A DNA stretch of 64,000 nucleotides from Pocillopora verrucosa (taxonomy: Eukaryota; Cnidaria; Anthozoa; Scleractinia; Pocilloporidae). A program made the position numbers and the translations under genes. The DNA is taken from NCBI RefSeq assembly GCF_036669915.1, contig NC_089321.1, positions 7,298,663 to 7,362,662 of the forward strand. The letters are read 5' to 3'. Positions 1 to 41,592 of the stretch are shown one piece after another. Position 1 is the first letter of the stretch. Each line of letters starts with the position of its first letter. A model generated the notes under the pieces. That model was not told where the DNA came from. It did not search any database and saw only the letters and a program-made list of their open reading frames with translations.

Positions 1-91
1 GTAGGTAACCAAGGTGATTTTATTCAAGATGAGACAATGATCCAATGAAAACAGCTGTTAGCAGTGGGATGATATAATATATAATTAAGTC

Positions 92-211
92 TGGTCCCCA
101 TGGAAATAGTTTGTTTTGTTTTCCTGAGATTCCTGATGTTTCCCTCAACTTTGTCTTGGGAAACATCAGAACTCTCAAGAAAACAAAACTAACTAGTTTC
201 CCAAGGGACCA
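92..211. mobile_element. Foldback MITE-like hairpin in DONSON intron 1, copy 1
   Basis: About 120 bp form one long imperfect inverted repeat. The outer ends are TGGTCCC and GGGACCA. Inner arms include GATGTTTCCC paired with GGGAAACATC, separated by about 13 bases. There is no coding capacity. The same hairpin is at the matching place in the other two DONSON introns, so it predates the duplication. Calling it a MITE is inference from its shape. Confidence 0.6.
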
Positions 212-932
212 TACATTAGGTGCTTTGTTCTATATTTGGACTTTCTCTTAAACAATCATATGGGAAAAACATGCTGTTGTACATGTATTCAGCATGCTTG
301 CAACAACTGCATAATTGTGGTCAGGATTTTGATCAGGGGCAGGTGACCAAGATCAACCAATCACAGTGCTTGTTTTGTTGAGTGAAAGTCCAGGAATATA
401 ACAATGTGATTTGAGCTCCAAAATAAATTTGTATGTATGCTTACATGTACTGACCACTACAGACAAGAAATGCTCCCAGGATGCCACTGGTTTTGAGTAA
501 AATAACTGAGCTGCTGCAACCACTTGTTTAGAGAAGAATTTGTAAACATGATTGTAACATTTTAGATTTATTGTGTTTTTACAAATTTATATTCAATTAC
601 AGCAATTGAAGACTTTTCCTTGTTCACATAACCAATTGAACACCCATGGTTTGGGAAAACTCACCAAAATTATGCAAACAGTTAATGCATCATGGTTTAA
701 GTAACACAATCTTAAGCTTTCCCAACGTGCCCTGTGTTCACCTGATTTAAAGTGATTACAGGGCTAGCCCTCTAGTACTTGTGTTCATCTGGTTTCTTTT
801 TTCAGGATGTATTGAATATAATCTACCTTGAAATTACCCAACCACTTAATCAGTAATTTTACCCTTCAAAGGCTATTTTTCTCTTGAATCTAATTTTCTT
901 CATAATAACAATATTATATTATCACATCCCAG

Positions 933-2490
933 GAATTAACTTTACCATGCCGCACTTGGAGGTCAAAGGAAAGAAAGAGTCTGGGCCTGGATCTAAGGAT
1001 GAGGACTCAGACGAAGAGGAAGATGCTGAGCTTGAGAATGATTCTGATGATGAGAGTATTGACAAGTGTGAGTGGCTAGAAAGCGTGGGACTTGATAAGG
1101 AACAGTTTCCACTGTTAAACCCCAAAGTTGTTACACCACATCAGAGGAACAATCTAAGAAGCTTAGATCAACAACCAACTTCTACAGTGTTAGTGAGAGG
1201 AGTTGATACTCTTGCATTGTTTAACTTCCTACTCAACTGTAAAAGTTTAACAGCCAACACTGGACCACAAGCTCAGGTGCCACCAACACTGCTGGCCCCT
1301 GTTGCATTTGAAGGAGCCACTTTAAAGGGTCTGAAGGTAAACCAAGGGACCACGAAGCATCAAAAAGCTAAGGCTATGGCACAGGTATAGGATACATTTG
1401 ATTGATTTTCAATATTTCTTGACCTCATTCTTTACAGATGCTCTACCATCATGATAAGATCAATGATAATTCTCGCAACAATAAGGTAAAGGTTATGCTT
1501 TCTCTGGAGACTATTGGCCAAAACAGTAACATGTAACACAGTTTATTCTTGTTCCACTATTATGAAGCTACTAACAGTATTGCATAGTGATCCCCCTCCC
1601 CTCCAATGTTTTGCTAGGTTTACCTGAAAATTTTATGTTGCCAATTTAAACTAAGTGGAAAGAGGAGAAGTATCTTACCTGAAAAATGCATGCTATGACA
1701 ATAACTGTTTATGATGTCACTGGCAGCGCCTTTGGTCAATATGAAGTGAATCCTGTTCTTTGATTGGCTACCCCAACAGGCAAGATGGGCCTCTCTTGCC
1801 TGCTTGGGATTTCCCACTTTGATCCTGTGCGAAAATACATTGCATGGAAGGGACTTAAAAATTTTTTTTTCAATTTTTGGACAGTGTGGGCAATGGAGTT
1901 GCAAAAAGCTGCAGAAGACAAGAAAAACAAAGACAATATAAACTACTCTCATGGGTTTATTGTGCACAAAAAAAAAAACTTGGTCAATATGTAGCCATCT
2001 TGATCAAACAAGCTTGGTCAATAACGCACATTTATTTCCAGCACTTCAGATGATTTGTTTAGTTTACTGTGAATTTTCATTGGTTCCTTAAGATGTTTTC
2101 ATTGCTGTAATTGGTGACTATGATTACTTACTAGGTTTTGGGTTTTTCAACTCTTAAATGAAGGGTGCTCTAATTGTGATGATATCCTTTTAGTTATACA
2201 GCCTGGAGATTTCTGGTCCAATCCTTCCTGGCTGTCTGTATGAACTGTGTCATCTACTGAGGGAATCACAAGGAGGAGACTTCAAAGCCACCTTCTTTGT
2301 GCACCAACCATCAGTAGCATTTAATGTCCCAAGCATTAAAACAGAGGAAAACTATATTCAGAGTGGGTGTAATTTACAGCAAAGCATCTCACATGGACAG
2401 TGGAGACACTACCTGGAGGCAGAAAAACTTAAGGAAATGTGTTTAAAAGACCTTAGCTGCAAAGACAAACTTTTCTCTTGGACAACTTGA
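933..2490 (+). CDS. DONSON: DONSON copy 1, exons 2-4 (5' partial at window edge)
   Basis: DONSON protects replication forks and helps load the CMG helicase in the nucleus. Visible exons are 933-1384, 1438-1485 and 2194-2490 (TGA). Exon 2 opens in phase 1 with GINFTMPHLE, matching the EGIEFSLPL region of vertebrate DONSON. It then has an acidic stretch rich in D, E and S, the WLESVGLD motif (vertebrate SWLEEMGV), VLVRGVDTLALFNFLLN, and GPQAQVPPTLLAPVAFEGAT, which is the most conserved block of the family. Exon 3 is a 16-codon mini-exon with good splice sites. Exon 4 carries LYSLEISGPILPG and ends FSWTT, 98 residues, identical in protein to copies 2 and 3. All visible exons are open. The first exon must lie left of base 1, so whether this copy is complete cannot be judged. 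Confidence 0.88.
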
Positions 2491-2708
2491 GTAAGACACT
2501 GCAGCCATTTAAATAATTTTTCCACAACAAGTACAGTCGTTTGAATTTAAAATGCAGCTGGATCTTAATGGAATCAATATTTACAGGGCAGCAGAAGTGT
2601 ACTTGGCTTAACTTAATTCTAAAGGGATCTGAATTTTATAAAGGGAGCCTTTCTAACATAACCAAGGAACAAATGTTTTAATTTTATTATTTATGGGTTT
2701 ATACAGAC

Positions 2709-2714
2709 AATAAA
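2709..2714 (+). terminator. AATAAA poly(A) signal, DONSON-1
   Basis: AATAAA lies about 220 bp after the stop codon. It is conserved at 25242-25247 and 40576-40581 behind the other DONSON copies. Assignment is by motif and position only. Confidence 0.45.
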
Positions 2715-3409
2715 TTATGAGTATCCATCCGCAGACATGAAAATCATATTTTTCCAAGTGTACAGCTTGACATGAAATGTTGTATTATAATTGTAGGACT
2801 AATTAGAAATAAGAGGTACTTGTCTAATTGTTATCTAAAAATGGATAAATTGCTGTCTGGTGCTTAAGTGTCATCAAAAGCTTGCTTTCCACCAGATGGA
2901 GATTAAATTTGCTGCTTCAACAACGGGGGCCAAATCAATAAGGCCTCAATTTGCATATTTTATGATAAATAATAAAGTGTAACTGTCCATTCCACATTTT
3001 TTCTGTAAAGCAATCATGTATAACCAAAGGAGACTGTCACTTAAATAACCATAACTTCACAAACCACACCAGCATATACATCAGTCATTTCTGCAAAAAT
3101 AAAAAAAAACGCAAAACCCCTAGATTGGGAATGAAATCATTTGTTATCCTATAGCACTCATATTAGTCAAGGGCGTATTAAGTATCTCAAGGACTCTTGA
3201 TTGAATGCTTGCCATGCTACATGCTGTGATCAGTATAAGGCTACCAAAGATTCTATATCACTTGAATACCCCATGCACTTCTACTTCAGTGTATTCAACA
3301 TTAGCTGAGAGAATGTCAATACAACCAGAATTGTTTTAAAGTACAGAACAAAAACATTTATAAGTCTTTTTTCTCAAACGCCCATGTTGCAAATTCTTGC
3401 TCAAAAAGT

Positions 3410-4405
3410 GAAAAGATCATAGACAGGCCTACACAGACTCCCCTGTGTGGTTTTACGTTTGCGACGCAAAAGCCTTTAATTAAAGCTTCGCTGTGACGAG
3501 TATGTCTTTGAGCGATTTACCTCTTTTGTATGATATAATCGGAGGCGTTTTGAAAATTGTGTTCAGCAGTGGCTGATTTTGGATGAGGTTCCATTCTTGC
3601 ATCAGTATTTGTTGTAAATGTTTAACCCCTGGGTGGTATGCTGTCACAAAAGGCAATATTTTGCCTTTAGTTTTTTTGGTTTGTTTTTTAAGTGTCGACT
3701 GCCTTGCGGCAAACGAGACCTCAGATAACGTTTTTTCAATTAGGCTTTTTGGGTAACAGTATTTACAATGTTCCTCAAGGGCGAACGTGATCTTTCACGT
3801 GTATTTACATTGTATTGTGATCGAGACTTGGCAATATTAGCCTTTTCAAGTTTGTTCTTGTGACTAACAAGTCTACGCTGATGGAAGCGCACTAGGGCGC
3901 TAACGTATTGTTCTTCGGCGTGACTTTTAATAGCGCTTATTTCCTGTCGAAAGGTTTCGTCAGGCGTGACGTTTGCCTTCGCCTTGTCTTGAAGCGACTT
4001 AGGGCAAGTCTTTTGTTGTAAGTGTCTCTCCAGTTTTAAAATGGAGGTTTCAGTTTTTTGCTTCTTGAACTGGATAGCGCTGATAGTGTCTTCATGTTTC
4101 CTCTTCCTTGGCTGCCGCGTGGATCGGCTATTCCTCGGAAGGTTTTCTTTTTGACGGCTTCCTTTTTGAAGGCGTAGACCTTCGTTGCTGCGTTGTTTGG
4201 CTAATGCAGCTTTATGCCTTGGCTCGAGTTGTGATGCTGGAGGGCTATCCTCTGGGTCCGGTTCTAGGTTCGGATCAGTGTACGTTAATTCCATCGCCTC
4301 GTCCAGATTTGGACGGTAGTCTGGCGTTTTTGGTGGCCGCAATGGTGTTTCAAAAGCTGACATCTTTTTCAGGTAAAACTGAAAGTGAAGTATATCGTCT
4401 AGCAT
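3410..4405 (-). mobile_element. Penelope-like retroelement copy 1, internally deleted
   Basis: This is the decayed relative of the element at 26049-28920. On the minus strand the open stretch 4405-3740 encodes the basic, coiled N-terminal region of a Penelope-like protein (starting MLDDILHFQF). About 1.95 kb, holding the rest of the ORF and the whole reverse transcriptase, is missing. The deletion joins sequence equivalent to 26398 directly to 28350, near base 3756, with a CA microhomology. It keeps a 72-bp piece (near 4160-4232) that the second copy has lost. Non-functional. Confidence 0.75.
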
Positions 4406-4439
4406 TTTCCCATCCCCGTTGCCTTAAACAAACGCATGC

Positions 4440-4800
4440 ACTCATAAATCTTCCCTTGCTGACTTGAACCCCGCGTGTTAACTTGAATAAAAACCGATTT
4501 CCCCAGGATTTCCATCAAACATTTCTAGCAGTTTTATCCACGGTAACTCAAACCCTCGATAACTCGAGCTTCCCGCCAACTCAGGTAATTTTCAGTAATT
4601 TTGTGTTCCGTTTTCATTCGACTTCTCTGTAATTGAATTGTATTAAAATGTATACTGTATAAGACGAAAAACAGTAAACACCGTTTTTCCCTCATTCCCG
4701 AGCCCTTGTTTTCAATTCCCGTTAACTCGAACTCCCGGTAACTCAATGGAACCTTCTTCAATTCTCCTTAAAGGTTCAAGTTATCGGGAGTCGATTGCAT
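4440..4800. mobile_element. Pogo/Tigger-like MITE remnant, block 1
   Basis: The region is dense with the words TAACTCGAA and CTCCCGATAACT in both orientations. The right end reads as the reverse complement of a terminal repeat of type TCGACTCCCGATAACTTG. This fits a non-autonomous pogo/Tigger-type element, but the left end and target duplication are not clear. Block 3 carries a further insertion inside this element. Confidence 0.4.
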
Positions 4801-5282
4801 TTATTTTTCGTATTGGATTTCATTTCGATCAAACTTTTGCTCATTTCCTCTCTAACTGATCGGAAACTCTTTATTTACAGGTGGTAAGGGAATAAATACT
4901 GTAGAACCGGAAAACAAGCAGCAGAGTTCAAACAATGGTTTGAACCAATGAACTAAGTTTGACTTGCCATAATGTAAATTGTAAATAGGATTTAAGTAAG
5001 TTAGTTCTCAAAGCAGACATTTCAATTCATGATTATTTCTAAGTTTCGTGAAAAAATTGGACCTAATGGGTCTGGGGGAAATCCGGTTTATCTCAGTGAC
5101 GTAATTTTTCATTATGCACGTTCAGTTGAAAATAAACAGACCTCCCCCCCCAAAAAAAACAAAACAAAACAAAATCAAAAAGAAAAGTGTAATAACTAGT
5201 TGCGATCGTAAAACAACTACCAACTGAAAAAATAGAAAAAACAGAAAAACCATGGAAATAGCTTCCATTTGTTAACTTATTT

Positions 5283-5764
5283 CATCGAGGTGCTGGTAAG
5301 AATAGCGATGATCCAAGTGAAAAGAATAAGGAACTGACACAGCTTTGAACTGATCAGTTAGGGACGGAGGGAAAAATATACATCTCCAAATCGATTGAAT
5401 GCTATTAAAACTAGGCTCTGAATAGACACACTAAAGCAGATATCTCCCAAGAAGACAGTCAGCTTTCACAACGCATCTCTAAGAGGACCGCTGATCAACC
5501 AGGAGCCGAGCGTTTGTGTTGTCTGTAAAAAAGGAAAAAAAGAAACAGAAGATCGGATATGGCCATATTTACCAAGAAAAAGTTGGTAGGCTTTCTCATG
5601 GATCTAGTTTTGTGGACAATTGTTGCAATGAAAAAACTTCCAGACACTGAGAAAACAAGTAACAGGCCGCAAAAAAAGGTTTTACCAATCCTCTTTACTA
5701 CTGGATTCAAGCAGTTCAGTGTTACTGGTGTTCTGTTCACCGTCGCACTAACGTTTGCCGACAT
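5283..5764 (-). pseudogene. Class A GPCR pseudogene (psi-II), block 1
   Basis: The reading starts MSANVSATVN at 5764 and gives TM1 and TM2 (FLVNMAISDLLF) of a GPCR related to the intact neighbour. The frame then shifts by one base after TM2. Downstream the other frame gives ISGPLRDAL, stop, then SIQSLVLIAFNRF (TM3 with NRF for DRF), and a further stop inside SLRP*LISSKLC before TM4. TM5-TM7 are absent. The frameshift and the SLRP* stop are also in blocks 2 and 3, so the gene was dead before the block was duplicated. The stop just after ISGPLRDAL is specific to this copy. Confidence 0.8.
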
Positions 5765-5829
5765 TCTTGGAACTGTAGGATCAGTGTCGTCTTCAGCAAG
5801 ATGCTCTCTAACTCTAGAAGCCAACTATT

Positions 5830-7715
5830 CTTTTATAACGAAAAAATAGAACAAAATTTATACTTCATTTGTACTTTAACTATTCGATGCAAAATTCGAT
5901 CTTTTGTACTTCAACAACAATTTTTACAATTGTAACCAAAATTGGAGACAGAGAAAAATAGGTTCCCTAATTTTTAGATGCAAGGATATCTTACAGATGC
6001 TTATATCTATTTTGTTTGATTTTCAATCTGCGCTAATCCTCCTACCTTACACACCCCAAACTAATAATTCGCACCAAAACATCAATTAAAACCCGACAGA
6101 TGGCCAGCTGTTATTCAGAATAGGTTAGGCATGTAATAGTTTTTGAATCAAATCGTTTCGCTCATTTTATGCTAAGTAGCTAGTTCTGCGATGTATTTGC
6201 TTTTTCGAAACAGCCTTTCATAAGTGTTTCATGTAATGCTCTCTGAATTTTTTTCGTATTTCATCACAATTCTATTCTGTGAGACTTTTGTTTCATACAG
6301 AAAGGCATTCCGCGTTTTGGGATATTCCGCTATTTCACTTCTTAAGACGGGTTTTGGGATATTCCGCCATTCAACTATTCCGCCGTTCTACCGTTCACGG
6401 TTCCAGTGTTCTATCATTCCATTGAATAGGGTCACCCTGTAATTTAGCGGCTCTTTTGGGCATATGTCGCTCATTGAAACGGTAAAATGTTCTCTTTCCA
6501 AAGTTTCCATGATATGCAGATCACACCTATTGATATATTTTTGCGCGGAAAATATGAGACTCACGAGAGTCAGACAGCTTTGCTACCCTCTACACGGTTT
6601 CCATTATGAGCCCAAGCAACTTCGACATACGCAGTAAAATTTGTAGATGCTTTTTAGGCTCTCTCCCCGTTATGAGGCTCACAGGAGTCAGACAAGTTCT
6701 GAGCCTGCACTTTGCTTACGGTCATATATACTTTTAGTTACAGTCCTCATCATTAGGTCGCCCTCTTCTTCTCCAGGGTTTGTCCCTCTCAGAAGAACGT
6801 CAAAAGTTCGATTTTTAATGAGAATTTTTTTAAATTCGGTTGGCCTCCTAATAGACTCTGTCAAATTTACTCTAAATGTAAAAAAATATGACTAAAGGTT
6901 TTTAAAGTTAACTCAGTACTCGTTAGAATTCAGGAAGTGAGGCAATTTTTGATCCATTAGGGTTTTTTTCCCCAAAAACTCTAATTTTCCATAAAAAGGA
7001 ATGACCGTGATGACAAATAATCTGAAGCTGAAGCAGAAGCAGAACCAGTTCCCATTGCTTTCTTGATAATATTTATTTGTAATATTAGATGTCAAGTAGA
7101 TTTTACTTTTTCTTTTTCCATCACATATTGATTGGAAACCTCTCTATTTTACACGAAGAGTGTAAAACTTTAATAACCGCAAACTGTACACAATAGAACC
7201 GAAATCCTCAAGTCAGAGTTCAAAAAACGGTTTGAACCGTTGAACAAAGTTTCTCTTGCTATAAGGTAAACTAACGTAAATGAATGAAATAAATATTATT
7301 TTCAAGTTTTGGGAAACAACTGGATTTAACGTATCCTATAGAGATCGCAGTAAATCATCTCGGTAAATACGTTGTCCTTTTTCATGCACAGCTGAAAATA
7401 GATAAACAAGGAAAAAAGGAAAAATCGTAATACTCTCTTCTTTTTATTAACTGAATTTCACTGAGTGCTACTTCAAACATTCTAGATGCAATAAAGCGAG
7501 GCTCCTCTAGAATCAGATAGATATAGGATTTCCGTAAGAGCTTGGCTGTTATCTTCGATATGATATGCTAGATACAAGAGTTTACAAAAAAGTTTGACCT
7601 TACAAGTTAGAAAAACAAAAACAGATTGAAAATATGGGAAACCAATTGTTGGCATGGGAAACAAATTTTATTCCTCGAATAATGCTGAACAGTATGCAAA
7701 AGATTGGGGCGACAA
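5830..7715. other. Non-coding part of module G, block 1
   Basis: No gene is visible in this 1.9-kb stretch between the pseudogene and the intact GPCR. It is nearly identical to 15306-17156 and 30557-32414. It holds two degenerate copies of a GGGATATTCCGC repeat at about 6318-6400 and paired direct repeats with AGACTCACGAGAGTCAGAC / AGGCTCACAGGAGTCAGAC at about 6554-6700. Short ORFs here are not conserved in length between blocks. Confidence 0.55.
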
Positions 7716-8720
7716 CTATGTCAGGGCAGCTTCATTGGTGGAGAAACAGCCGAGGAGGTTCTTAAGACCTTGACGATAATTACCGCTGAATATGAAACAG
7801 ATACAAGGGTTTACAGCGCAGTATGATCGAACCAGAATGATAGTAATATGTGCAGAGTATTGGAAGGCACAAGATGACATCATGGCGCTGTCTGATAAAA
7901 ACAAGAATAAGAAGAAAATGATACAGGATGGCAGCCAGCATACTGCAAAAGCGAACACGATGGCAACGGACATCTTCAGAGCATTTCTCTCTCTCTTCAA
8001 GCGCTGTTTTCTTGCGTTTACTGAAGGCTCACCTGGAATCTTCTGCGATTTAATTCTTACGGCAATGGAAAAGTAAAATATGGCAATCAAAACCAAAGGG
8101 ACATAGAGGAATACAATGATCGTTACCAGAGTGTAGTTTTTAATCGATGAGGACTCTCTAAATTTGTCGTTCAACTCCCGCTGACAAACCAGCCTTTCTG
8201 TATTGTCGACAACTTTCCACACAAGCAATTGTGGGCAACAGACTGCCATGGCGACGACCCAAATTACGAGAATGAAGAGCCTGCATCGCTTTGAACTGAT
8301 CAGTGAGGGACGGAGAGGAAATACCACAGCTACAAATCGATCCACTGCTATCAGAACGAGGCTCTGAACGGACACAACAATGGAGACATCAGTAACGAAA
8401 TACCTTAGTCTACACAACGCTTGGCCAAATGGACCGCTGAGCAGCCAGTGGCTGGCTGCGTTTAACCTTACAAAAAGTGCAGGAAAACAGATAATCGAGA
8501 ACAACAGATCGGATATTGCCATGTTTACAATCAAAATGTTGATTGGTGTTCTCAGAGCTTTTTCCTTGTAGACAATAATTCCAATGAGGATATTTCCAGC
8601 CAGCGACACAACAAATAGCAGACAGTAGGCAAAGGTTTCACCAATTCTTGTCGCTGTGGGGTTGAAGCAGCTCGACATGGACTGTGTTCCATTCATCGTT
8701 GCTGTCACGTTTGCTGACAT
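7716..8720 (-). CDS. Class A (rhodopsin-like) GPCR, copy 1
   Basis: An intact single-exon seven-transmembrane receptor of 334 residues in the plasma membrane, ATG at 8720. The N-terminus has N-glycosylation sites (NVT, NGT). TM1 carries GNILIG, TM2 has NMAISDLLF (D2.50), and TM3 ends in DRF instead of DRY. ICL2 has FPLRPSLISSKRC, TM6 has CWLP, and TM7 has NPCIC in place of NPxxY, followed by NYRQGLKNLL. An in-frame TAG shortly upstream supports this ATG. It resembles the lineage-expanded cnidarian peptide/amine-receptor-like GPCRs. No ligand can be assigned. By eye it differs from copy 3 at about 40 of 334 residues, mostly in TM3 and TM4-TM7, while the N-terminus to TM1 and ICL3 are the same. 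Confidence 0.9.
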   Translation of the reverse strand: MSANVTATMNGTQSMSSCFNPTATRIGETFAYCLLFVVSLAGNILIGIIVYKEKALRTPINILIVNMAISDLLFSIICFPALFVRLNAASHWLLSGPFGQALCRLRYFVTDVSIVVSVQSLVLIAVDRFVAVVFPLRPSLISSKRCRLFILVIWVVAMAVCCPQLLVWKVVDNTERLVCQRELNDKFRESSSIKNYTLVTIIVFLYVPLVLIAIFYFSIAVRIKSQKIPGEPSVNARKQRLKRERNALKMSVAIVFAFAVCWLPSCIIFFLFLFLSDSAMMSSCAFQYSAHITIILVRSYCAVNPCICFIFSGNYRQGLKNLLGCFSTNEAALT

Positions 8721-10039
8721 ATTGCAGTGCCAGGAGATCAGTTTTGTTTTCAGCCAGCAGCTCTACGAAGGCCACTTATATTCTACCAAAGCAGGAAAAA
8801 AAACATAGCTTATGAATCATATCTATCTATATAAATAAAACATGCTTAATTATTAAACATGGCTAGAAATTTAGGCAAATCGGCAGTCTACACCCGAAAC
8901 TTCCCCCAACAGATAACCAGAGTGGAGTTTAATAACTTTCGTTCGGAGTTATATTATCGAGATACTTTTCCAATTCAGAGTATGGTTGGAGAAAAAAGGA
9001 CAATTTTCGAAAGTTCTAAGTTGTTCCTATTATTAAAATTATTATTGTTACTATTGACAAAATGATGAGAAAAAGACTCCAGAAACATCCCAGCAACAGA
9101 TGTTTACTGATAATGATCACGTATTGAAGCAAGCGAAATAATCTAATGACAATGTTCTACACCCACATTTTTATTAAGAATTCATTTTTATTAAGGATTC
9201 ATTTTTAATTATTTTGTCATCGAAAGTTTAATCCAGCCTGGAACTTACTCAGAAGGCTCGTTACTCAATTGACTGGTTGGAGGTTTTTCAAGTACATTTT
9301 ACGGATTTTCACGAAGTTGTAATGAAAGGGAAGGGCTCAGGACAATTTTTATGTCAAGTGGGGAGTTTTCTTTTGCCACGAAGAGAATTTGTACGTCGCT
9401 GAACAGAATTTTACAGCTGCTGAAGCTGGTGGAAAAAAATAGGCAAATAAAGCATCCAGCACTATGCTCGAGGAGATAAAACAGCCGAGCAGATCGTGTA
9501 AAGGATTGGTGCTGAAGAGTTCCTCTTCCAGCTTTCCATGTGAACGACAATTTTTTCTATGAAAAAAAGAAAGAAAAAGATGAAGGAAATAGATAAATGC
9601 TCATATTGCCTATTTTCGCACTTAATGAATAACGATTCACAGCCCGAAGAGAATAAGTGGGCGTTAAAGCTAACAACAATATTGTTTAATGTTCTGTGCT
9701 CCGTCGATATGTCAATTAGGCATTCCTTCTCTCATCAATACCATCTAAGAAATGGGTCCGAAAGTTTCAGAAAATTTACGTGATCGTCGCCGAACAGAAT
9801 TACTCAGCTGCTGAAGTCGGTGGAAGGAGGCCAGATAAAGCTTCCGCTCTGCCTGAGGGGGGAGGACAGTTGGTTCACTTGCACGTGATCATACCGTATA
9901 AATGATATTTACAGCGCCTTTATCATCAAGCTTCTCATTCAGTGAATAAGTTATTAAATTCGAGATCGTTTTTGCGCAGAAGAAAAAGAATAAATAAAAC
10001 AAAGGCAGTTCCAGGACATTTTGACAGGGAGATCGAAAA
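8721..10039. other. Non-coding upstream region of GPCR copy 1
   Basis: No gene is seen. A TATATAGATAG-rich stretch at 8820-8835 lies upstream of the GPCR start on the minus strand and could be promoter. The rest is AT-rich and shared with blocks 2 and 3. The segment 8850-9040 is missing in block 2, where a ribozyme-like element (18279-18350) takes its place. Confidence 0.45.
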
Positions 10040-10200
10040 TAACTTCAGACCTTCAGGTTACGCGCTTCCATGCTCTAGAGCATCGGCTGCGGAATCCGAT
10101 GGTGGAGGTTCGATTCCTCACGGGGACTCCGAATGTTTTCTTTGTCCCACGCTCGTGACAAGACGAAAAACATCTTTTTCTATTTCCTTACCGAGCTCAA
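10040..10200 (+). mobile_element. tRNA-derived SINE-like unit, block 1
   Basis: A tRNA-like 3' half is visible: GAGCATCGG, a G-rich anticodon-like loop, ATCCGATGG, then a good box B, GGTTCGATTCC (10107-10117). The 5' half is degenerate. A body with GACAAGACGAAAAACATC follows and is conserved in all three blocks. The anticodon-like loop is one base too long for a working tRNA, so a SINE or tRNA pseudogene is more likely. Confidence 0.5.
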
Positions 10201-10220
10201 AACTTACCGTCTCTCATATT

Positions 10221-10580: not shown

Positions 10581-10624
10581 GACAAAAGCTCCAATTTGTT
10601 TTGTTTTGTTTTTGTTCTCTTTGG

Positions 10625-11650: not shown

Positions 11651-11724
11651 AGAACTATGAGATAGGTTTTCTCTTCAGCCAGTAGGTATCTGGAGGCTAC
11701 CAATGCTCTATTTAAAGAAAGCAC

Positions 11725-13867: not shown

Positions 13868-13914
13868 TTTTTTCCCATCCCCATTGCCTTAAACGACCGC
13901 ATGTACTCATAAAT

Positions 13915-30491: not shown

Positions 30492-30556
30492 TCTTGGAAC
30501 TGTAGGATCAGTGTCGTCTTCAGCAAGCTGCTCTCTGACCCTAGAAGCCACCTATT

Positions 30557-32414
30557 CTTTTATAACGAGAAAATAGTACAAAATTTACACTTAATTTTTA
30601 CTTTAACTGTTCGATGCAAAATTCGAACTTTTGTACTTCAACAACAATTTTTACAATTGTAGCAAAAATTGGAGACAGAGAAAAATAGGTTCCCTAATTT
30701 TTAGATGCAAGGATATCTTACAGATGCTTATATTTATTTTGTTTGATTTTCAATCTGCGCTAATCCTCCTACCTTATACACCCCAAAATAATAATTCGCA
30801 CCAAAACATCAATTAAAACCCGACAGATGGCCAGCTGTTATTCAGAATAGGTTAGGCATGTAATAGTTTTTGAATCAGATCGTTTCGCTCATTTTATGCT
30901 AAGTAGCCAGTTCTGCGATGTATTTGCTTTTTCGAAACAGCCTTTCATAAGTGTTTCATGTAATGCTCTCTGAATTATTTTCGTATTTCATCACAATTCT
31001 ATTTTGTGAGACTTTTGTTTCATACAAAAAGGCATTCCGCGTTTTGGGATATTCCGCTATTTCACTTCTTAAGACGGGTTTTGGGATATTCCGCCATTCA
31101 ACTATTCCGCCGTTCTACCGTCCACGGTTCCAGCGTTCTATCATTCCATTGAATAGGGTCACCCTGTAATTTAGGGGCTCTTTTGGGCATATGTCGCTCA
31201 TTGAAACGGTAAAATGTTCTCTTTTCAAAGTTTCCATGATAAGCAGATCACATCTATTGATATATTTCTGCACGGTAAATATGAGACTCACAAGAGTCAG
31301 ACAGCTTTGCTACCCTCTACACGGTTTCCATTATGAGCCCAAGCAACTTCGACATGCGCAGTAAAATGTGCAGATGCTTTTTAGGCTCTCTCCCCGTTAT
31401 GAGGCTCACAGGAGTCAGACAAGTTCTGAGCCTGCACTTTGCTTACTCTCATACGTACTTTTAGTTATAGTCCTCATCATTAGGTCGGCCTCTTCTTCTC
31501 CAGGGTTTGTCCCTCCCAGAAGAACGTCAAAAGTTCGGTTTTTTCATGTAAAATTTTTTAAATTCGGTTGATCTCCTAATGGACTCTGTAACATTTACTC
31601 TCAAGGCAAAGAGATATGACTAAAGGTTTTTAAAGTTAACTCAGTATTCGTTAGAATTCAGGAAGAGAGGCAATTTTCGATCCATTAGGGTTTTTTTTTC
31701 CCCAAAACTCTTGTTTTCCATAAAAAGGAATGACCGTGATGACAAATAATCTGAAGCTGAAACAGAAACAGAACTAGTTCCCATTGCTTTCTTGATAATA
31801 TTTATTTGTAATATTAGATGTCAAGTAGATTTTACTTTTTCTTTTTCTATCACATAGTGATTGGAAACCTCTTTATTTTACACGAAGAGTGTAAAACTTT
31901 ACTAACCGCAAACTGTACACAATACAACCGAAATCCTTAAGTCAGAGTTCAAAAAACGGTTTGAACCGTTGAACAAAGTTTCTCTTGCTATAAGGTAAAC
32001 TAACGTAAATGTATTAAATAAATATTATTTACAAGTTTTGGGAAACAACTGGATTTAACGTATCCTATAGAGATCGCAGTTCATCTCGGTAAATACGTTG
32101 TTCTTTTTCATGTGCAGCTGAAAATAGATAAACGAGGAAAAAAAGGAAAAATCGTAATACTCTCTTCTATTTATTAACTGAATTTCACTGAGTGCTACTT
32201 CAAACATTTTGGATGCAATAAAGCGATGTTTGTAAGAGCTTGACTGTTATTTTCGATATGATATGCTAAATGCACGAGTTTACAAAAAGGTTTGACCTTA
32301 CAAGTTAGAAAACAAAAACAGCGATTAAAAATGTGGGAAACCAACTGTTGGCATGGGAAACAAATTTGATTCCTCGAATAATACTGAACAGTGTGCAAAA
32401 AATTGGGGCAACAA
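30557..32414. other. Non-coding part of module G, block 3
   Basis: Counterpart of 5830-7715. No gene is seen. Confidence 0.5.
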
Positions 32415-33419
32415 CTATGTCTGGGCAGCTCTATTAGTAGAGAAACAGCCGAGGAGGTTCTTAAGACCTTGACGATAATTACCGCTGAATATGAAACAGA
32501 CACAAGGGTTTACAGCGCAGTATAATGCAGCCAGAAAAAGGACAATATGTATAGAGTATTGGAGGGCACAAGATGATATCATGGCGCTGTCTGATGAAAA
32601 CAAGAATAAGAGGAGAACGATACTGAATGGCAGCCAGCATACTGCAAAAACGAACACGATGGCAACGGACATCTTCAGAACACTTCTTTCTCTCTTCAAG
32701 CGCTGTTTTCTTGCGTTTACTGAAGGCTCACCTGGAATCTTCTGCGATTTAATTCTTACGGCAATGGAAAAGTAAAGTATGGCAATCAAAACCAAAGGGA
32801 CATAGATGAATACAATGATCATTACCAGAATGTAATTTTCAATCCATGAGGACTCTCTAAGTTTGTCATTCCACTCCCGCTGACAAACCAGCCCTTCTGT
32901 ATTCTCGACAAATTTCCACACAAGCAAGTGTGGGCAACAGACTGCCATGGCGACGACCCAAATTACGAGAATGAAGAGCCTGCATCGCTTTGAACTGATC
33001 AGTGAGGGACGGAGAGGAAATACCACAGCTACAAATCGATCCACTGCTATCAGAACTAGGCTCTGAATGGACACAGTAATGGAGACATCATTAACGAAAT
33101 ACTTTAGTCTGCACAACGCTTGGCCAAATGGACTGCTGAGCAGCCAGTGGCTGGCTGTGTTTGACCTTACAAAAAGTGCAGGAAAATAGATAATCGAGAA
33201 CAACAGATCGGATATTGCCATGTTTACAATCAAAATGTTGATTGTTGTTCTCAGAGCTTTCTCCTTGTAGACAATAATTCCAATGAGGATATTTCCAGCC
33301 AGCGACACAACAAATAGCAGACAGTAGGCAAAGGTTTCACCAATTCTTGTCGCTGTGGGGTTGAAGCAGCTCGACATGGACTGTGTTCCATTCATCGTTG
33401 CTGTCACGTTTGCTGACAT
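32415..33419 (-). CDS. Class A GPCR, copy 3
   Basis: An intact 334-residue single-exon receptor. I chose ATG at 33419 because it matches the start of the other two copies. The frame stays open upstream here only because the upstream TAG has become CAG. It has GNILIG, NMAISDLLF, DRF, CWLP and NPCVC, then NYRQGLKNLLGCF. Sequence to the end of TM1 and across ICL3 (IKSQKIPGEPSVNARKQR) is the same as in copies 1 and 2. TM7 and the last extracellular loop differ most (SIHIVLFLAALYC against SAHITIILVRSYC in copy 1). Also RTTIN replaces RTPIN at the TM2 entrance. The ligand is unknown. Confidence 0.9.
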   Translation of the reverse strand: MSANVTATMNGTQSMSSCFNPTATRIGETFAYCLLFVVSLAGNILIGIIVYKEKALRTTINILIVNMAISDLLFSIIYFPALFVRSNTASHWLLSSPFGQALCRLKYFVNDVSITVSIQSLVLIAVDRFVAVVFPLRPSLISSKRCRLFILVIWVVAMAVCCPHLLVWKFVENTEGLVCQREWNDKLRESSWIENYILVMIIVFIYVPLVLIAILYFSIAVRIKSQKIPGEPSVNARKQRLKRERSVLKMSVAIVFVFAVCWLPFSIVLLLFLFSSDSAMISSCALQYSIHIVLFLAALYCAVNPCVCFIFSGNYRQGLKNLLGCFSTNRAAQT

Positions 33420-34679
33420 ATTGCGGTGCCAGGAGATCAGTTTTGTTTTCAGCCAGCAGCTCTGCGAAGGCCACTTATATTCTACCAAAGCCGGAAAAAC
33501 ATAGCTTATGAATCATATCTATCTATATAAATAAAACATGCTTAATTATTAAACATGCCTAGAAATTTGAGAAAATCGGCAGTCTACACCCGAAACTTCC
33601 TCCAACAGATAACCAGAGTCGGAGTTATCTTATCGATATACTTTTCCAATTCAGAGTATGGTTGGAGAAAAAAGGAGAATTTTCGAAAGTTGTTCCTATT
33701 ATTGAAATCATTATTGTTACTATTGACGAAATGACAAGAAAAAGACTCCAGAAATATCCCAGCAACAGATGTTTACTGATAATGATGACGTGTTAAAACT
33801 AGTCAATCAATCAAATGACAATATTCTACACCGACATTTTTATTAAGGACTCATTTTTAATCACGTTGTCATCGAAAGTTTAATCCAGCCCAGAACTTAC
33901 TCAGTAGGCTCGTTACTCAGTTGACTGGTTGGAGGTTTTCAAGTACATTTTAAGGCTTTTCACGAAGTTATAATGAAAGGGAAGGGCTCAGGACAATTTT
34001 TATGTTAAGTGGGGAGTTTTCTTTTTCCACGAAGAGAATTTGTACGTGGCTGAACAGAATTTAACAGCTGCTGAAGCTGGCGAAAAAAATAGTCAAATAA
34101 AGCATCCAGCACTATGCTCGAGGAGATAAAACAGCCGAGCAGATCGTGTAAAGGATTGATAGTGAAGAGTTCTTCTTCCAGCTTTCCATGTGAACGACAA
34201 GTTATTCTATGAAAAAGAGAAAAGATGAAGTAAATAGATAAATGCTTATATTGCCTATTTTCGCACTTAATGAATAACGATTCACAGCTCAAAGAGAATA
34301 AGTGGGCGTTAAAGCTAACAACAATATTGTTTAATGTTCTGTGCTCCGTCGATATGTCAATTAGGCATTCCTTATCTCATCAATACCATCTAAGAAATGG
34401 GTCGGAAAGTTTCAGAAAACTTAGGTGATCGTCGCCGAACAGAATTACTCAGCTGCTGAAGTCAGTGGGAGAAAGCCAGATAAAGCCTCAGCTATGTCTG
34501 AGGGAGGAGGAAAGTTGGTTCACTCGCACGTGATCATATGATATTCACAGCGCCTTTATCAACAAGCTTTTCATTCAGTGAACAAGTTATCAAATTCGAG
34601 ATCGTTTTTGCGCAGAAGAAAAAAAAAAAAATAAAACAAAGGTAGATCCAGGACATTTTGACAGGGAGATCGAAAATAA

Positions 34680-34830
34680 CTTCAGACCTTCATATTCCGC
34701 GCTTCCATGCTCTAGAGCATCGGACTGCGGAATCCGATGGTGTGAGGTTCGATTCCTCATGGGGAATCCGAATGTTTTCTTTGTCCCACGCTCGTGACAA
34801 GACGAAAAACATCTTTTTCTATTTCCTTAC
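34680..34830 (+). mobile_element. tRNA-derived SINE-like unit, block 3
   Basis: Same unit as in blocks 1 and 2. The stem CATCGGA / TCCGATG is intact here. Box B GGTTCGATTCC is at 34746-34756. Confidence 0.5.
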
Positions 34831-34859
34831 CGGGCTCAAAACTTACCGTCTCTCATATT

Positions 34860-35212
34860 CTATTTACAAATAATGATAATGTATTGAAAGGCAATCAACA
34901 CCATAGACATATAGTAAAGTGCTTTTATATTTGCCACGACGTAGTCTAAGAATTCAGAAGTATCTCTGAAGACATTTCCCCAGTGAGGCTCACACTCTAT
35001 CACTGCTGTGGGGTTACTGAACAAGTTCATTGGCGCTAAAGAAAGGGGACTAGATGGCCATGACGATAATCCAAGTACCCAGGATGAATAAGGAACACCG
35101 CTTTGAGTTGACGAACGGAGAATGGAAGGGATACACCACAGCATGATATCGGCCAGGCTCTGAATTGACATAGCAGCGGTGACTTCCGAGAGAAAGACAC
35201 CAACTTACACAA
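34860..35212 (-). pseudogene. GPCR fragment TM3-TM5 (psi-III), block 3
   Basis: It reads SEVTAAMSIQSL, then has lost the LIAVDRFGA segment and continues out of frame. TM4-TM5 residues are split over two frames. More decayed than in blocks 1 and 2, but it retains the MSIQSL part that the others lack. Confidence 0.72.
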
Positions 35213-35256
35213 GACGGAAGCTCCAATTTGTTTTGTTTTGTTTTTGTTCTCTTTGG

Positions 35257-36487
35257 ACGAGGGAAAGAAACCACTGTTTTTCTCGTGTAAATATTACCCA
35301 CGCAAAATAAAATTGTCTCTACATTGCAGCCGGTTTGCAAGGGGCATGGATCTTTGAATATCCGCATCATATGACTTTGTACGTCGTGTTGTTTTTATTC
35401 CATTTTATCATTCATAACGACCAGTCTTTTCACAGGCTAAGAAAATCTAGGATGGAAAATTTTGGAGAATTTGTTATCTTACATGCACTAGTTTAATTTG
35501 CGTCTGTCTAAAAAAACCACAAAGTTAAGGGAAACGAAATTTTTTCCGAAATAGGCTAGTAGCTGTCAGCTGTTAAAACTGATATTACATAATCATGGTG
35601 CTATTTGCATTAAATGGCGTCTTGAATATTCTCCCAATTGGTACAAGCCGTAACCGGCGATAATTTGAAGTCATTTTGCTCGTCAATTTACTTTGCGGAG
35701 TTATCTGTGATGAACTTATTTCAAGACGATTGTTAAACGTCAAAATTCTTGACGCTTCGGAACGTAGAGATCAATAAATGTCAAGTGAATCCAGTTTTAT
35801 TACCGTCGTTGTTAACGAATTTGGAAAAACTTAGAAGAACATTACAGGGATCAGTCGAGGGAAAGAAACCGCTGTTTTTCTCGTGTAAATATTACCCACG
35901 CAAAATAAAATTTTCTCTACATTTAAGCCGGTTTGCGCAGAAGAAAAAGGCATGGATCTTTGAATATCCGCATGATATGACTTAATACTTCATGTCGTTT
36001 TTACTCCATTTTATCATTCATAACGACCAGTCTTTTCACAGGCTAAGAAAATATTCGATGGGAAATTTTGGAGAATTTGTTATCTTACATGCACTAGTTT
36101 AATTTGCGTCTGTCTAAAAAACCACAAAAGTAAGGGAAACGAAATTTTGTCCGAAATAAGCTAGTAGCTGTCAGCTGTTAAAACTGATATTCCATAATCA
36201 TAGCGCTATCTGCATCAAACGGCGTCTTGAATAAATTCCCAATTGGTAGAAGCCGTAACCAGCGATAATTTGAAGTCGTTTTGCTCGTCAATTTACTTTG
36301 CGGAGTTATATGTGATGAACTTATTTCAAGGCGATTATTAAAGGCGATTATTAAACGTCCAGTCCGTCAAAATTCTTGACGCTTCGGAACGTAGAAATCA
36401 ATAAATGTCAAGTGAATCCAGTATTATTACCGTCGTTGCTAACAACTGGAATTTGGAAAAACTTAGAAGAACATTACAGGGATCAGG
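35257..36487. repeat. Tandem duplication of a 600-bp module, block 3
   Basis: First copy 35257-35854, second 35855-36487. Same arrangement as 19928-21149, so the doubling preceded the split of units 2 and 3. A small extra direct repeat, AAGGCGATTATTA, is doubled near 36330-36352. Confidence 0.78.
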
Positions 36488-36606
36488 AGAAAAAATTTTT
36501 TTCTAGAAATATTTTCCAGAGTAAACCTACCGAAAAAGATTTTGGTTGAAATGTGATGTTTTGAGGAGACGAAGAGAGGAAGCTTGGGTACTGGTAAAGT
36601 AAATAT

Positions 36607-36640
36607 CACGTGATGTTTTGGCGCGGAATTTATAAAAACC
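36607..36640 (+). promoter_or_regulatory. Putative DONSON-3 core promoter (E-box, E2F-like, TATA-like)
   Basis: CACGTG at 36607-36612, TTTTGGCGCGG at 36616-36626, then TTTATAAAA. Same arrangement as DONSON-2. A short insertion (about 7 bp) separates it from the start codon compared with copy 2. Confidence 0.5.
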
Positions 36641-36692
36641 ATTGTACTTCGTTGCTGGCAAAGTTGAAGGAAAATAATTGTCGCTTTTAAAC

Positions 36693-39600
36693 ATGGAAGA
36701 AAAACACTCACCTGAGCTTATTCGGTTTAAAAAACCTTCAGGAGTTATAAAATTGAAGATAAAAAAGAAGAAGCTGACTCAAAACTCATCAAAACGGATT
36801 TCAAACGCCTTGAAACCTATCAATGGACGAATTCAAGATGGACGCTCACAGGCGTTAAAGCGAGCGAATCCTTTTAAGTGTTCTCCGAGGAAAAAGGCGA
36901 ATCTCTCCGCAGAAGGGAAAACTTCAGAATGCAGGCTGTTTAGTGCCCTCGATGGACTGGACGAGAATCAGGAAAATAGATCCACAAACACTGTTCATGA
37001 AACAAGTAATAACTCACAACAGCAAAATACTGGCAATAGCCTGGAAACTGACGTTGCTGATTCTCCACTAACTGTGGCTAAAGGGAAAATGGGCGAGAAT
37101 GATGGTTCAGAATTTTTTCCTTTAGACTGGAGCTTAAAAACTAAAGTAAGATTTTCTTCTTCCAAGACGTTTAATTGGTGTGGGACATTGAAGACATTTG
37201 ACGAAGGTGCTGGTATATCACATTTTGTTCGTTGCCAAACAAAGGAAATCGATTCAATTGGAAACGGTGCTTCTCATCCTGAATCATTTTGTTCCTTTAC
37301 CAAAGTTTGGATGCACCCTTCTCTACCGTGGCGTAAATCAGCCGATGGTAGAACTAGTTTGAAAAGACATTTTCTAATCACGGAAGAAATGGCATCTTCT
37401 CTTCACCATGACTGGGTGTCCAGTTTTCGCTCCGTCTTCAACATGGTGCGCGTTGGTTTTTGTCCTTACTTTTATCTAGTTGCAAATCAGAACACTATGC
37501 TTTTTCAGGCAGCTGGAATAAACAGGGATGATGCAGTTCAAGTGGTTATAACACCCACGACCAAAGGTTTCCGGGATGCGTTGAGGAGTGAAGGTAAATC
37601 TACATCACTGTACAGGTTTATGAATAAAGGGAGAAACTTTCTAAAGAAACTGTGGTGCTGCGATATCCCTCTGACAAAGGGCTACAGCTCAAAACGTCAG
37701 CTTTTAAGCTCTTTAAGATGGCCAATTTATGTTATCAACTCAGTTGATAATACTTAATTACACTGTACAGATTAGTTTCATGGGTGCAATAATCATTGTA
37801 GAAATAGTTCATCGAAAACCTTTACCAGACACTTATAACCTTGAGCTGGTAACCTTGTACCTTTATATGTAGGTAACCAAGGTGATTTTATTCAAGATGA
37901 GACAATGATCCAATGAAAACAGCTGTTAGCAGTGAGATGATATAATATACACTTAAGTCTGGTCCCCATGGAAATAGTTAGTTTTGTTTTCCTGAGAGTC
38001 CTGATGTTTCCCTCAACTTTGTCTCGGGAAACATCAGAACTCTCAAGAAAACAATAACTAACTAGTTTCCCAAGGGACCATGCATAAGGTGCTTTGTTCT
38101 ATATTTGGACTTTCTCTTAAACAATCATATGGCAAAAACATGCTGTTGTACATGTATTCAGCGTGCTTGCACAACTGCATAATTGTGTCCTGGTCAGGAT
38201 TTTGATCAGGGGCATGTGACCAAGATCAACCAATCACAGTGCTCGTTTTGTTGAGTGAAAGTCCAGGAATATAACAATTTGATTTGAGCTCCAGAATATA
38301 TTTGTATGTATGCTTACATGTACTGACCACAAGACAAGAAATGCTCCCAGGATGCCACTGGTTTTGAGTAAAATAACGGAGCTGCTGCAACCACTTGTTT
38401 AGAAAAGAATTTGTAAACATGATTGTAACATTTTAGATTTATTGTGTTTTTACAAATTTATATTCAATTACAGCAATTGAAGACTTTTCCTTGTTCACAT
38501 AACCAATTGAACACCCATGGTTTGGGAAAACTCACCAAAATTATGCAAACAGTTAATGCATCATGGTTTAAGTAACACAATCTTGAGTTTTCCCAAAGTG
38601 CCCTGTGTTCACCTGATTTAAAGTGATTACAGGGCTAGCCCTCTAGTACTTGTGTTAACCTGGTTTCTTTTTTCAGGATGTATTGAATATAATCTACCTT
38701 GAAATTACCCAATCACCTAATCAGTAATTTTACCCTTCAAAGGCTATTTTTCTCTTGAATCTAATTTTCTTCATAATAACAATATTATATTATCACATCC
38801 CAGGAATTAACTTTACCATGCCGCACTTGGAAGTCAAAGGAAAGAAAGAGTCTGGGCCTGAATCTCAGGATGAGGACTCAGACGAAGAGGAAGATGCTGA
38901 GCTTGAGAATGATTCTGATGATGAGAGTATTGACAAGTGTGAGTGGCTAGAAAGCATGGGACTTGATAAGGAACAGTTTCCACTGTTAAACCCCAAAGTT
39001 GTTACACCACATCAGAGGAACAATCTAAGAAGCTTAGATCAACAACCAACTTCTACAGTGTTAGTGAGAGGAGTTGATACTCTTGCATTGTTTAACTTCC
39101 TTCTCAACTGTAAAAGTTTAACAGCCAACACTGGACCACAAGCTCAGGTGCCACCAACACTGCTGGCCCCTGTTGCATTTGAAGGAGCCACTTTAAAGGG
39201 TCTGAAGGTAAACCAAGGGACCACGAAGCATCAAAAAGCTAAGGCTATGGCACAGGTATAGGATACATTTGATTGATTTTCAATATTTCTTGACCTTATT
39301 CTTTACAGATGCTCTACCATCATGATAAGATCAATGATAATTCTTGCAACAATAAGGTAAAGGTTATGCTTTCTCTGGAGACTATTGGCCAAAACAGTAA
39401 CATGTAACACAGTTTATTCTTGTTCCACTATTATGAAGCTACTAACAGTATTGCATAGTGATCCCCCTCCCCTCCGATGTTTTACTAGGTTTACCTGAAA
39501 ATTTTATGTTGCCAATTTAAACTAAGTGGAAAGAGGAGAAGTATCTTACCTGAAAAACGCATGCTATGACAATAACTGTTTATGATGTCACTGGCAGTGC

Positions 39601-40358
39601 CTTTGGTCAATATGAAGTGAATCCTGTTCTTTGATTGGCTACCCCAACAGGCAAGATGGGCCTCTCTTGCCTGCTTGGGATTTCCCACTTTGATCCTGTG
39701 TGAAAATACATTGCATGGAAGGGACTTTAAATTTTTTTTTTTCAATTTTTGGACAGTGTGGGCAATGGAGTTGCAAAAAGCTGCAGAAGACAAGAAAAAC
39801 AAAGAAAATATAAACTACTCTCATGGGTTTATTGTGCACAAAAAAAGAACTTGGTCAATATGTAGCCATCTTAATCAAACAAGCTTGGTCAATAACGCAC
39901 ATTTATTTCCAGCACTTCAGATGATTTGTTTAGTTTACTGTGAATTTTCATTGGTTCCTTAAGATGTTTTCATTGCTGTAATTGGTGACTATGATTCCTT
40001 AGGTTTTGCGTTTTTCAACTCTTAAATGAAGAGTGCTCTAATTGTGATGATATCCTTTTAGTTATACAGCCTGGAGATTTCTGGTCCAATCCTTCCTGGC
40101 TGTCTGTATGAACTGTGTCATCTACTGAGGGAATCACAAGGAGGAGACTTCAAAGCCACCTTCTTTGTGCACCAACCATCAGTAGCATTTAATGTCCCAA
40201 GCATTAAAACAGAGGAAAACTATATTCAGAGTGGGTGTAATTTACAGCAAAGCATCTCACATGGACAGTGGAGACACTACCTGGAGGCAGAAAAACTTAA
40301 GGAAATGTGTTTAAAAGACCTTAGCTGCAAAGACAAACTTTTCTCTTGGACAACTTGA
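36693..40358 (+). CDS. DONSON: DONSON copy 3 (open frame, 5-residue deletion)
   Basis: Exons: 36693-37593, 38804-39255, 39309-39356 and 40062-40358. They total 1698 nt, giving 565 residues. The frame is open throughout and all introns are GT-AG. Compared with copy 2, a 15-bp in-frame deletion in exon 1 (after 37332) removes LELFP from PSLPWLELFPR, a motif that vertebrate DONSON also has (WLPLFPR). By eye exon 1 carries about eight replacement and four silent differences from copy 2. Exons 2-4 are almost unchanged and exon 4 is identical in protein. It could therefore be impaired or differently specialised. It lies tail-to-tail with CCDC148 at what seems to be the ancestral right edge of the array. 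Confidence 0.9.
37671..37755 (+). mobile_element. Degenerate hammerhead-like Penelope terminus in DONSON-3 intron 1
   Basis: Same motif as 22329-22415. Twelve bases (TTTCTAAAGAAA) just upstream are present here and missing in copy 2. Confidence 0.45.
37960..38080. mobile_element. Foldback MITE-like hairpin in DONSON-3 intron 1
   Basis: Third copy of the 120-bp hairpin, ends TGGTCCC / GGGACCA. Confidence 0.6.
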
Positions 40359-40575
40359 GTAAGACACTGCAGCCATTTAAATAATTTTTCCACTGCAAGT
40401 ACAGTCGTTTGAATTTAAAATGCAGCTGGATCTTAATGCAATCAATATTTACAGGGCAGCAGAAGTGTACTTGGCTTAACTAGATTCTAAAGGGATCTGA
40501 ATTTTATGAAGGGAGCCTTTCTAACATAACCAAGAAACAAATGTTTTAATTTTATTATTTATGGTTTATACAGAC

Positions 40576-40581
40576 AATAAA
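40576..40581 (+). terminator. AATAAA poly(A) signal, DONSON-3
   Basis: About 220 bp after the stop codon, conserved with copies 1 and 2. Confidence 0.45.
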
Positions 40582-41592
40582 TTATGAGTATCCATCCACA
40601 GACATGAAAATCATATTTTTCCAAATGTACAGCTTGACATGAAATGTTGTATTATAATTTTAGGACTAATTAGAAGTAAGAGGTACTTGTCTAATTGTTA
40701 TCTAAAAATGGATAAATTGCTATCTGGTGCTTAAGTGTCATCAAAAGCTTGCTTTCCACCAGATGGAGATTTATTAGCTGCTTCAACAACCGGGGCCAAA
40801 TCAATAAGGCCTCAATTTGCATATTTTATGATAAATAATAAAGTGTAACTGTCCATTCCACATTTTTTCTGTAAAGCAATCATGTATAACCAAAGGAGAC
40901 TGTCACTTAAATAACCATATCTTCACAAACCACATCAGCATATGCATCAGTCATTTCTGCAAAATAAATACAAAACCCTCAGATTGGGAATGAAATCATT
41001 TGTTACCCTATAGTACTCATATCAGTCAAGGGCATATTAAGTATTCTGAGGACTCTTGATTGAATGCTTGCCATGCTACATGCTGTAATCAGTCATAAGG
41101 CTACTTAAGATTCCATATCACTTGAATACTCCATGCACTTGTACTTCAGTGTATTCAACACCGGCTGAGAGAATGTCAATACAACCAGAATTGTTTTAAA
41201 GTACAGAACAAAAACTTTTGCAAGTCTTTTTTCTCAAATGCCCGTGTTGCAAATTCTTGCTCAAAAAGTACTTTTCCCTTTTCCTTGAAGGTATTTCTGT
41301 CATCAAAACTTTTTTTCCACAACATCTGCCAATTATATTTCTGTCACCCAACAACTCAAATTGAAGTTAGCCTTTATGTGAACATTTAATAAAATAGACC
41401 TGAAACTTCCCTTTAATTTAATTAAAACATTAAAAAAAAAACCCTTATGAGGATGGGAAAAAGCTTTGTGGCCCTGCATGGTGCTAGCTGAAAGGAGAAA
41501 GGGATGGTTATAAATACATAAAATTGGTTTTAATGTAATAAGCAAAGCCTAAGGTCTGGATTAAGAGCCTACAACAAATAATAATAAAAAAA
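40582..41592. other. Intergenic region between convergent DONSON-3 and CCDC148
   Basis: It holds the 3' flank of DONSON-3, the duplication edge at about 41269, and then unique AT-rich sequence. No gene is seen. A CCDC148 poly(A) signal was not identified with confidence. Confidence 0.5.

Follow-up and report, generated by a model that had tools for sequence, protein, structure and literature searches.

Recurrent tandem duplication is reported from non-syntenic regions of Acropora genomes, where non-allelic homologous recombination has been proposed to drive it and where unrelated neighbouring genes and transposons hitchhike along (PMC12314368). In two further corals, 29.9% (Porites lobata) and 32.6% (Pocillopora cf. 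effusa) of the genes lie in tandem clusters, many of them validated by long reads (PMC10236652). Here we describe a related case in a 64,000-nucleotide stretch of Pocillopora verrucosa DNA (contig NC_089321.1, positions 7,298,663 to 7,362,662; hereafter the window), in which three copies of the replication gene DONSON alternate with three blocks of G protein-coupled receptor (GPCR) genes. We give a probability of about 0.6 to the reading that the locus arose by compound tandem duplication, with DONSON carried as a passenger by a birth-and-death cluster of GPCR genes. Like the Acropora expansions it would be a tandem amplification with hitchhiking neighbours (PMC12314368); unlike them, for which families such as TPR-CHAT, cytochrome P450 and sulfotransferase are named (PMC12314368), it carries a replication gene and its steps can be read from the joints at one locus. 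The word DONSON is absent from the main texts (supplements excluded) of PMC12314368 and PMC10236652, and no report of extra DONSON copies was found among the open-access papers searched, as judged by title and start of the abstract. As far as the literature searched reaches, the mode of amplification is known in corals, and DONSON as its cargo and a lesion in the third copy are new instances. The locus would offer a readable example of coral-type gene amplification, with two rounds of duplication ordered by joints and divergence and with a replication gene carried along.

In the DNA as assembled, the alternation of DONSON copies and GPCR blocks across 1-41269 is confirmed. A BLAST comparison of the window with itself recovered the three GPCR blocks and agreed with the first-pass annotation of this DNA on the alternation of three copies with three blocks, on the order DONSON-GPCR-spacer-GPCR-DONSON-GPCR-DONSON and on the end of the repeat at 41269. 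The DONSON genes lie on the forward strand and the GPCRs of the three blocks on the reverse strand, and by sequence the repeat unit is a GPCR block followed by a DONSON gene. Numbered from left to right (D1-D3 for DONSON, G1-G3 for the GPCR blocks), the components are:

933-1384 and 2194-2490, forward strand: exons 2 and 3 of DONSON copy D1; the window starts inside intron 1 and exon 1 lies further left
3410-4404, reverse strand: retroelement remnant 1, at the D1/G1 joint, with a 1952-bp internal deletion relative to remnant 2
4405-11301, reverse strand: GPCR block G1, with an intact GPCR at 7716-8720 and relics at about 5301-5764 and at 10242-10535
11302-13869, no strand assigned: spacer, with a GPCR relic at 11455-11643; interpreted as what first bordered the GPCR-DONSON unit on its left
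13870-21227, reverse strand: GPCR block G2, with an intact GPCR at 17157-18161 and relics at about 14777-15240 and at 19545-19838
21349-22264, 23464-23915 and 24727-25023, forward strand: the exons of DONSON copy D2, complete, 554 amino acids
26049-28919, reverse strand: retroelement remnant 2, exactly at the D2/G3 joint, with a reverse-transcriptase open reading frame at 26376-27236
28920-36566, reverse strand: GPCR block G3, with an intact GPCR at 32415-33419 and relics at about 30027-30491 and at 34881-35154
36693-37593, 38804-39255 and 40062-40358, forward strand: the exons of DONSON copy D3, 549 amino acids, with an in-frame 15-bp deletion
41269-41270, no strand assigned: the point where the array ends on the right; at this base of the shared flank D1 and D2 pass into the retroelement

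In the self-comparison 14106-18278 matches 29363-33536 at 95.5%, 18344-25810 matches 33690-41136 at 95.9%, 1-3264 matches 22527-25797 at 98.4% and 1-3409 matches 37869-41269 at 96.8%, and 1-11301 is colinear with 22527-36566. The claim that a tandem amplification had copied DONSON together with a GPCR block is supported, the amplification being fairly young. The accompanying description of introns and flanks as near-identical suits the DONSON gene body, with 0.5-3.0% divergence in 400-bp windows, better than it suits the GPCR blocks, with 1.5-10% and, in one window adjoining a gap, 16-17%. Divergence of the DONSON 3' flank reaches 6.7%; a single D2/D3 edge window stands at 11%.

The history of the array can be approached through its joints. 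In both cases (2/2) in which a GPCR block follows a DONSON gene, a truncated retroelement sits exactly between the two. The DONSON 3' flank breaks off at the identical base in D1 and D2 (...CTCAAAAAGT, then GAAAAG), where D3 enters other sequence, which to the right of 41269 is unrepeated in the window at matches of at least 150 bp. Both elements likewise meet the GPCR block at one base, the block beginning with TTTTCCCATCC, and this is the base of the spacer/G2 joint as well. Since the joints fall on shared bases, the DONSON-element-GPCR joint would most simply have arisen once and then been copied, and the spacer/G2 and D3/right-flank joints look like the ancestral outer edges of the original locus. 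The ancestral arrangement would have been left flank (the spacer, 11302-13869), GPCR block, DONSON and right flank (from 41270 on). A first tandem duplication, its joint formed within the retroelement or together with it, would have given the order spacer-G2-D2-element-G3-D3-right flank. Later, at about 4.4-5.0 kb, the left ends of G3 and G1 would have recombined unequally (by non-allelic homologous exchange), which would have put a second DONSON-element segment (D1) to the left of G1, at an offset of about 22.5 kb.

The second step is supported by a break in divergence. When 1-11301 is aligned with 22527-36566, a change point is found at 4968 (2-unit interval 4828-5024), with 1.37% divergence to its left and 5.87% to its right; the log-likelihood ratio is 83, and none of 1000 shuffles of 100-column blocks gave one as large. 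The last ~300 alignment columns are inflated by a doubled segment, but without the badly aligned right end the change point still falls at 4968 (1.37% to 5.64%, log-likelihood ratio 74, 0/1000), and with neighbouring changes collapsed it falls at 4897 (4392-5040), with 1.25% against 3.54% (log-likelihood ratio 30, 0/1000). The resulting feature is:

4392-5040, no strand assigned: putative unequal-exchange point, the widest support interval of the divergence step

We read the step from 1.37% to 5.87% near 5 kb as the trace of an exchange in which G1 recombined with a G3-type block at the left end of the latter; an unequal exchange was one of the two kinds of event between which the first-pass annotation had left the choice. 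Same-orientation direct repeats and an identity step at the exchange point are both present, although such a step could also come from a haplotype mis-join.

Relics of GPCR genes surround the DONSON copies: two broken or fragmentary ones occur in each block and one in the spacer, which places DONSON within a GPCR cluster that has partly decayed. All three intact GPCRs (334 amino acids) match Pfam 7tm_1 over its positions 1-259/260, with E values of 1.4e-51 to 8.3e-49, and are class A (rhodopsin-like) receptors on this evidence. For the GPCR in G3, the solved relatives at the head of the list (60 of 326 matches listed) are receptors for neuropeptide Y and neuropeptide FF. For the three GPCR pairs the ratio of nonsynonymous to synonymous substitution rates (dN/dS) is 0.90, 1.47 and 1.68, each indistinguishable from 1, and the divergence of GPCR coding DNA is on a par with that of the surrounding intergenic DNA (4.6% against 4.2%, P=0.61). 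The GPCRs thus appear to be evolving under little detectable constraint. Over the whole DONSON coding sequence D2 and D3 have a dN/dS of 0.34, from 8 synonymous and 10 nonsynonymous changes (P=0.037; here and below the P values for coding changes come from small counts and several tests and are uncorrected), and over exons 2 and 3 of 0.13 (P=0.021). Their ratio of nonsynonymous to synonymous counts differs from that of G2/G3 (P=0.021) and from that of G1/G3 (P=0.028), the two GPCR pairs set against them. Taken as a pair D2 and D3 look constrained, if thinly so, and we make no such claim for D3 in particular.

Several observations weigh against this account of the locus. Beyond 5 kb, no single block is consistently the closest to G1, so that further exchange or an older divergence is required. 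The DONSON introns of D2 and D3 differ by 1.8% and the GPCR intergenic DNA by 4.2% (P=5e-7), a gap that a single duplication date leaves unexplained, and the leftmost 240 bp of G2 are 10-11% diverged from their counterparts in G1 and G3. The constraint on DONSON is likewise uneven: exon 1 of D2/D3 gives a dN/dS of 0.56 (P=0.31), and exons 2 and 3 give 0.68 (P=0.65) for D1/D2 and 0.40 (P=0.29) for D1/D3. Gene conversion may have homogenised DONSON and so account for the low intron divergence, but when the alignment of the three DONSON copies was examined directly for conversion tracts, the outcome was negative (clustering 45 against 42 expected, 1590/5000). A conversion mosaic was also considered for the GPCR blocks. 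There a first pass gave 227 adjacent like-labelled sites against 146 expected (0/5000), and omission of 8800-9060 together with a wider gap mask gave 183 against 129 (0/5000), but the signal vanished once same-label changes at most 5 bp apart were collapsed (114 against 104, 615/5000), and we do not claim a mosaic. Given the same collapse, the change-point test held.

The suspicion that uncollapsed haplotypes had been assembled side by side is a real one for D1 and D2, which are 1.4% apart, and less so for D2 and D3. D1 might be the other allele of D2, the assembler having switched haplotype inside the similar GPCR blocks, and a real haplotype would then carry D2 and D3. We hold this to be a possible but rather improbable explanation. 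The divergence of 1.37% between the two DONSON-element segments lies inside reported coral heterozygosity (1.14% in Pocillopora cf. effusa, 2.3% in Porites lobata; PMC10236652), a mis-join inside the repeat would equally produce the identity step near 5 kb, and allelic duplications are reported as an assembly problem (PMC10236652). However, these segments differ by the 1952-bp deletion, by a 78-bp indel and in a 53-bp repeat array (alleles, too, can differ in such ways), a mis-join is hard to make with accurate reads where the copies differ by 1.7% just to the left and by 7.0% just to the right of the step (300-column windows), and the window is free of N bases. It is far less credible that the entire array is an assembly artefact of a locus with a single DONSON. 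Coral genomes are described as often highly heterozygous, allelic duplications were removed from two coral assemblies (PMC10236652), and the DONSON exons and introns of D2 and D3 are only 1.1% and 1.8% diverged; but the same two copies differ by ~4.2% in GPCR intergenic DNA and by 3.9% in the 3' flank, which exceeds the quoted heterozygosities, the two occurrences of the DONSON-element-GPCR joint share their breakpoints although the copies are not identical, and the sequence beyond 41269 has no repeat in the window at the matches considered above. In our judgement it is likely that one haplotype carries three DONSON copies and very likely that it carries at least two.

A different history takes up the extra deletion that the first-pass annotation had considered: a plain array of GPCR-DONSON-element units from which the DONSON and element between G1 and G2 were deleted, the spacer being substituted for them. 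That G1 stops ~120-130 bp upstream of the expected DONSON start codon would suit this model, yet we consider it unlikely, as the spacer/G2 joint coincides with the element/GPCR joints at a base that an independent later deletion would hit by chance alone. Moreover, the spacer gave no DONSON hit above chance in protein and DNA searches; it does show GPCR similarity, and it holds a GPCR relic of its own. With this joint base shared and DONSON undetected in the spacer by those searches, it is simpler to see in the spacer the left flank of the first locus, caught between two duplication rounds; the compound duplication needs no deleted fourth DONSON, and the extra deletion invoked to explain the order of the array has little or no support.

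The DONSON label itself was borne out by phmmer searches against PDB. Residues 51-305 of D2 exon 1 match residues 59-327 of Xenopus DONSON (8q6o; E=1.8e-34), and the corresponding open reading frame of D3 finds the same structure (E=2.4e-29), as do D3 exon 2 (to Xenopus residues 327-473, E=7.1e-25) and D3 exon 3 (to Xenopus residues 485-578, E=1.7e-8); D3 exon 2 also matches Caenorhabditis elegans DNSN-1 (8ouw; E=3.5e-4). D1 and exons 2-3 of D2 were assigned via 96-100% protein identity to the PDB-matched exons, exon 3 encoding the same 98 residues in all three copies. As in the DONSON and DNSN-1 systems, the three coding exons align and counterparts of Xenopus Trp234, Trp381 and Ser437 are found in D2 and D3; unlike in those systems there are three neighbouring copies, and D3 lacks the five residues that follow the Trp234 counterpart. 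The homology spans the DONSON globular domain and the C-terminus. Trp381 of the MCM3-binding helix and the MCM3-contacting Ser437 of Xenopus are W and S in D3, and the same in D1 and D2. The Xenopus acidic residues 374, 377 and 384 have no residue-for-residue counterpart in the D3 alignment, and the position of Met463, which with Trp234 belongs to the homodimer contact, is occupied by Leu. D2 residues 1-60, where the N-terminal GINS-binding peptide was sought, gave no match to DONSON in the PDB set and only weak ones to histone H1 (E 0.94 and 1.3). The gene has three coding exons, and its models use GT-AG introns. The three copies had been described as open over every visible exon, and so they are, but exon 1 of D1 is unseen and the five residues missing from D3 lie beside the dimer interface. 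An additional exon of 16 codons between exons 2 and 3 was considered and rejected: direct splicing preserves the residue spacing of Xenopus, with 17 residues, by our own count, from the aligned Lys to the aligned Phe or Tyr across the junction.

The deletion in D3, which had earlier been overlooked, removes 15 bp in frame after ~37331, and with them LELFP behind the tryptophan of HPSLPW. In D2 this LELFP aligns with VQLFP at positions 235-239 of Xenopus DONSON, conservation of the stretch being judged from this one reference protein, and the tryptophan matching Xenopus Trp234 is kept both in D2, where LELFP follows, and in D3, where it does not. Trp234 is a homodimer-interface residue, and Trp228Leu, at the human counterpart, is described as dominant negative and as disrupting dimers and the binding of GINS and MCM (PMC7616792). 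The D3 deletion might break the dimer. The D3 product would be altered beside a homodimer contact and could be a hypomorph, a poison subunit or the product of a decaying copy, whereas D2, and probably D1 too, would still encode an ordinary DONSON that brings GINS to MCM. We think it doubtful that D3 is a retained paralogue with an altered dimer contact, pairing or competing with the normal copies; were it so, the animal's origin-firing capacity would depend on how much dimer-competent DONSON there is relative to the dimer-impaired form, and not on one essential gene. Provided that all three copies are real, two questions follow: whether surplus DONSON can be tolerated, and whether normal DONSON and a natural form altered beside the dimer contact can exist side by side, which bears on the dominance of the human change Trp228Leu. 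The gene had been called dosage-sensitive, for which we find little or no support: the passage in question concerns biallelic partial loss of function, which lowers the level of DONSON protein, and says nothing on extra copies (PMC10801813).

Further features accompany the DONSON copies. Intron 1 contains a self-complementary stretch in each (22598-22759, 89-233 and 37940-38087; ~76-78% between strands), perhaps a small inverted-repeat element. Downstream of D2, at 25741-25903, a 53-bp unit is repeated 3.1 times with 100% matches, and the counterparts of this array in D1 and D3 are 106 and 105 bp shorter, ~2 units. An E2F-like sequence, TTTGGCGC, lies at 21280-21287 and 36617-36624, ~70 bp upstream of the start codons of D2 and D3. 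We take the E2F-like motif to be TTTSGCGC; the window has three such sites and at least three occurred in 28 of 100 shuffles, a count not above chance, and we give it no weight.

In retroelement remnant 2 the match to RVT_1 is weak (E=6.1e-06, 26.5 bits against a cutoff of 29.6). An upstream open reading frame at 27544-28920 has a start codon that straddles the joint between element and G3. A Pfam search of the piece downstream of the reverse transcriptase and of the upstream open reading frame gave no match, and no endonuclease was found in it. Penelope-like retroelements encode a reverse transcriptase, mostly together with a GIY-YIG endonuclease; here the RVT_1 match lies under the cutoff and the endonuclease was not found, and Penelope-like is a tentative label for the remnants.

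The GPCR blocks also differ in structure. A ~600-bp segment located between a GPCR relic and the DONSON promoter is doubled in G2 (19927-20530 and 20530-21149) and G3 (~35258-36486) and single in G1. G3 in addition has an insertion of its own:

~29159-29366 (208 bp), private to G3: flanked by TTAA on either side, with CCCTTTA as its inverted termini; G1 and G2 show the empty site intact

Given these ends, the inverted termini and the empty sites, it looks like a small transposon that arrived later, presumably piggyBac-like.

As long shots, two contig collections that are not made up of animal genomes were scanned for relatives; viral_contigs gave 3 pattern matches to D2 exon 1 and genome_contigs gave 38 to the GPCR of G2, of which none was confirmed in either case. 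In the right flank of the array, 55906-62684 has matches to RING, TRAF-type zinc-finger and TRAF/MATH domains, in this order, which probably belong to one TRAF-like gene.

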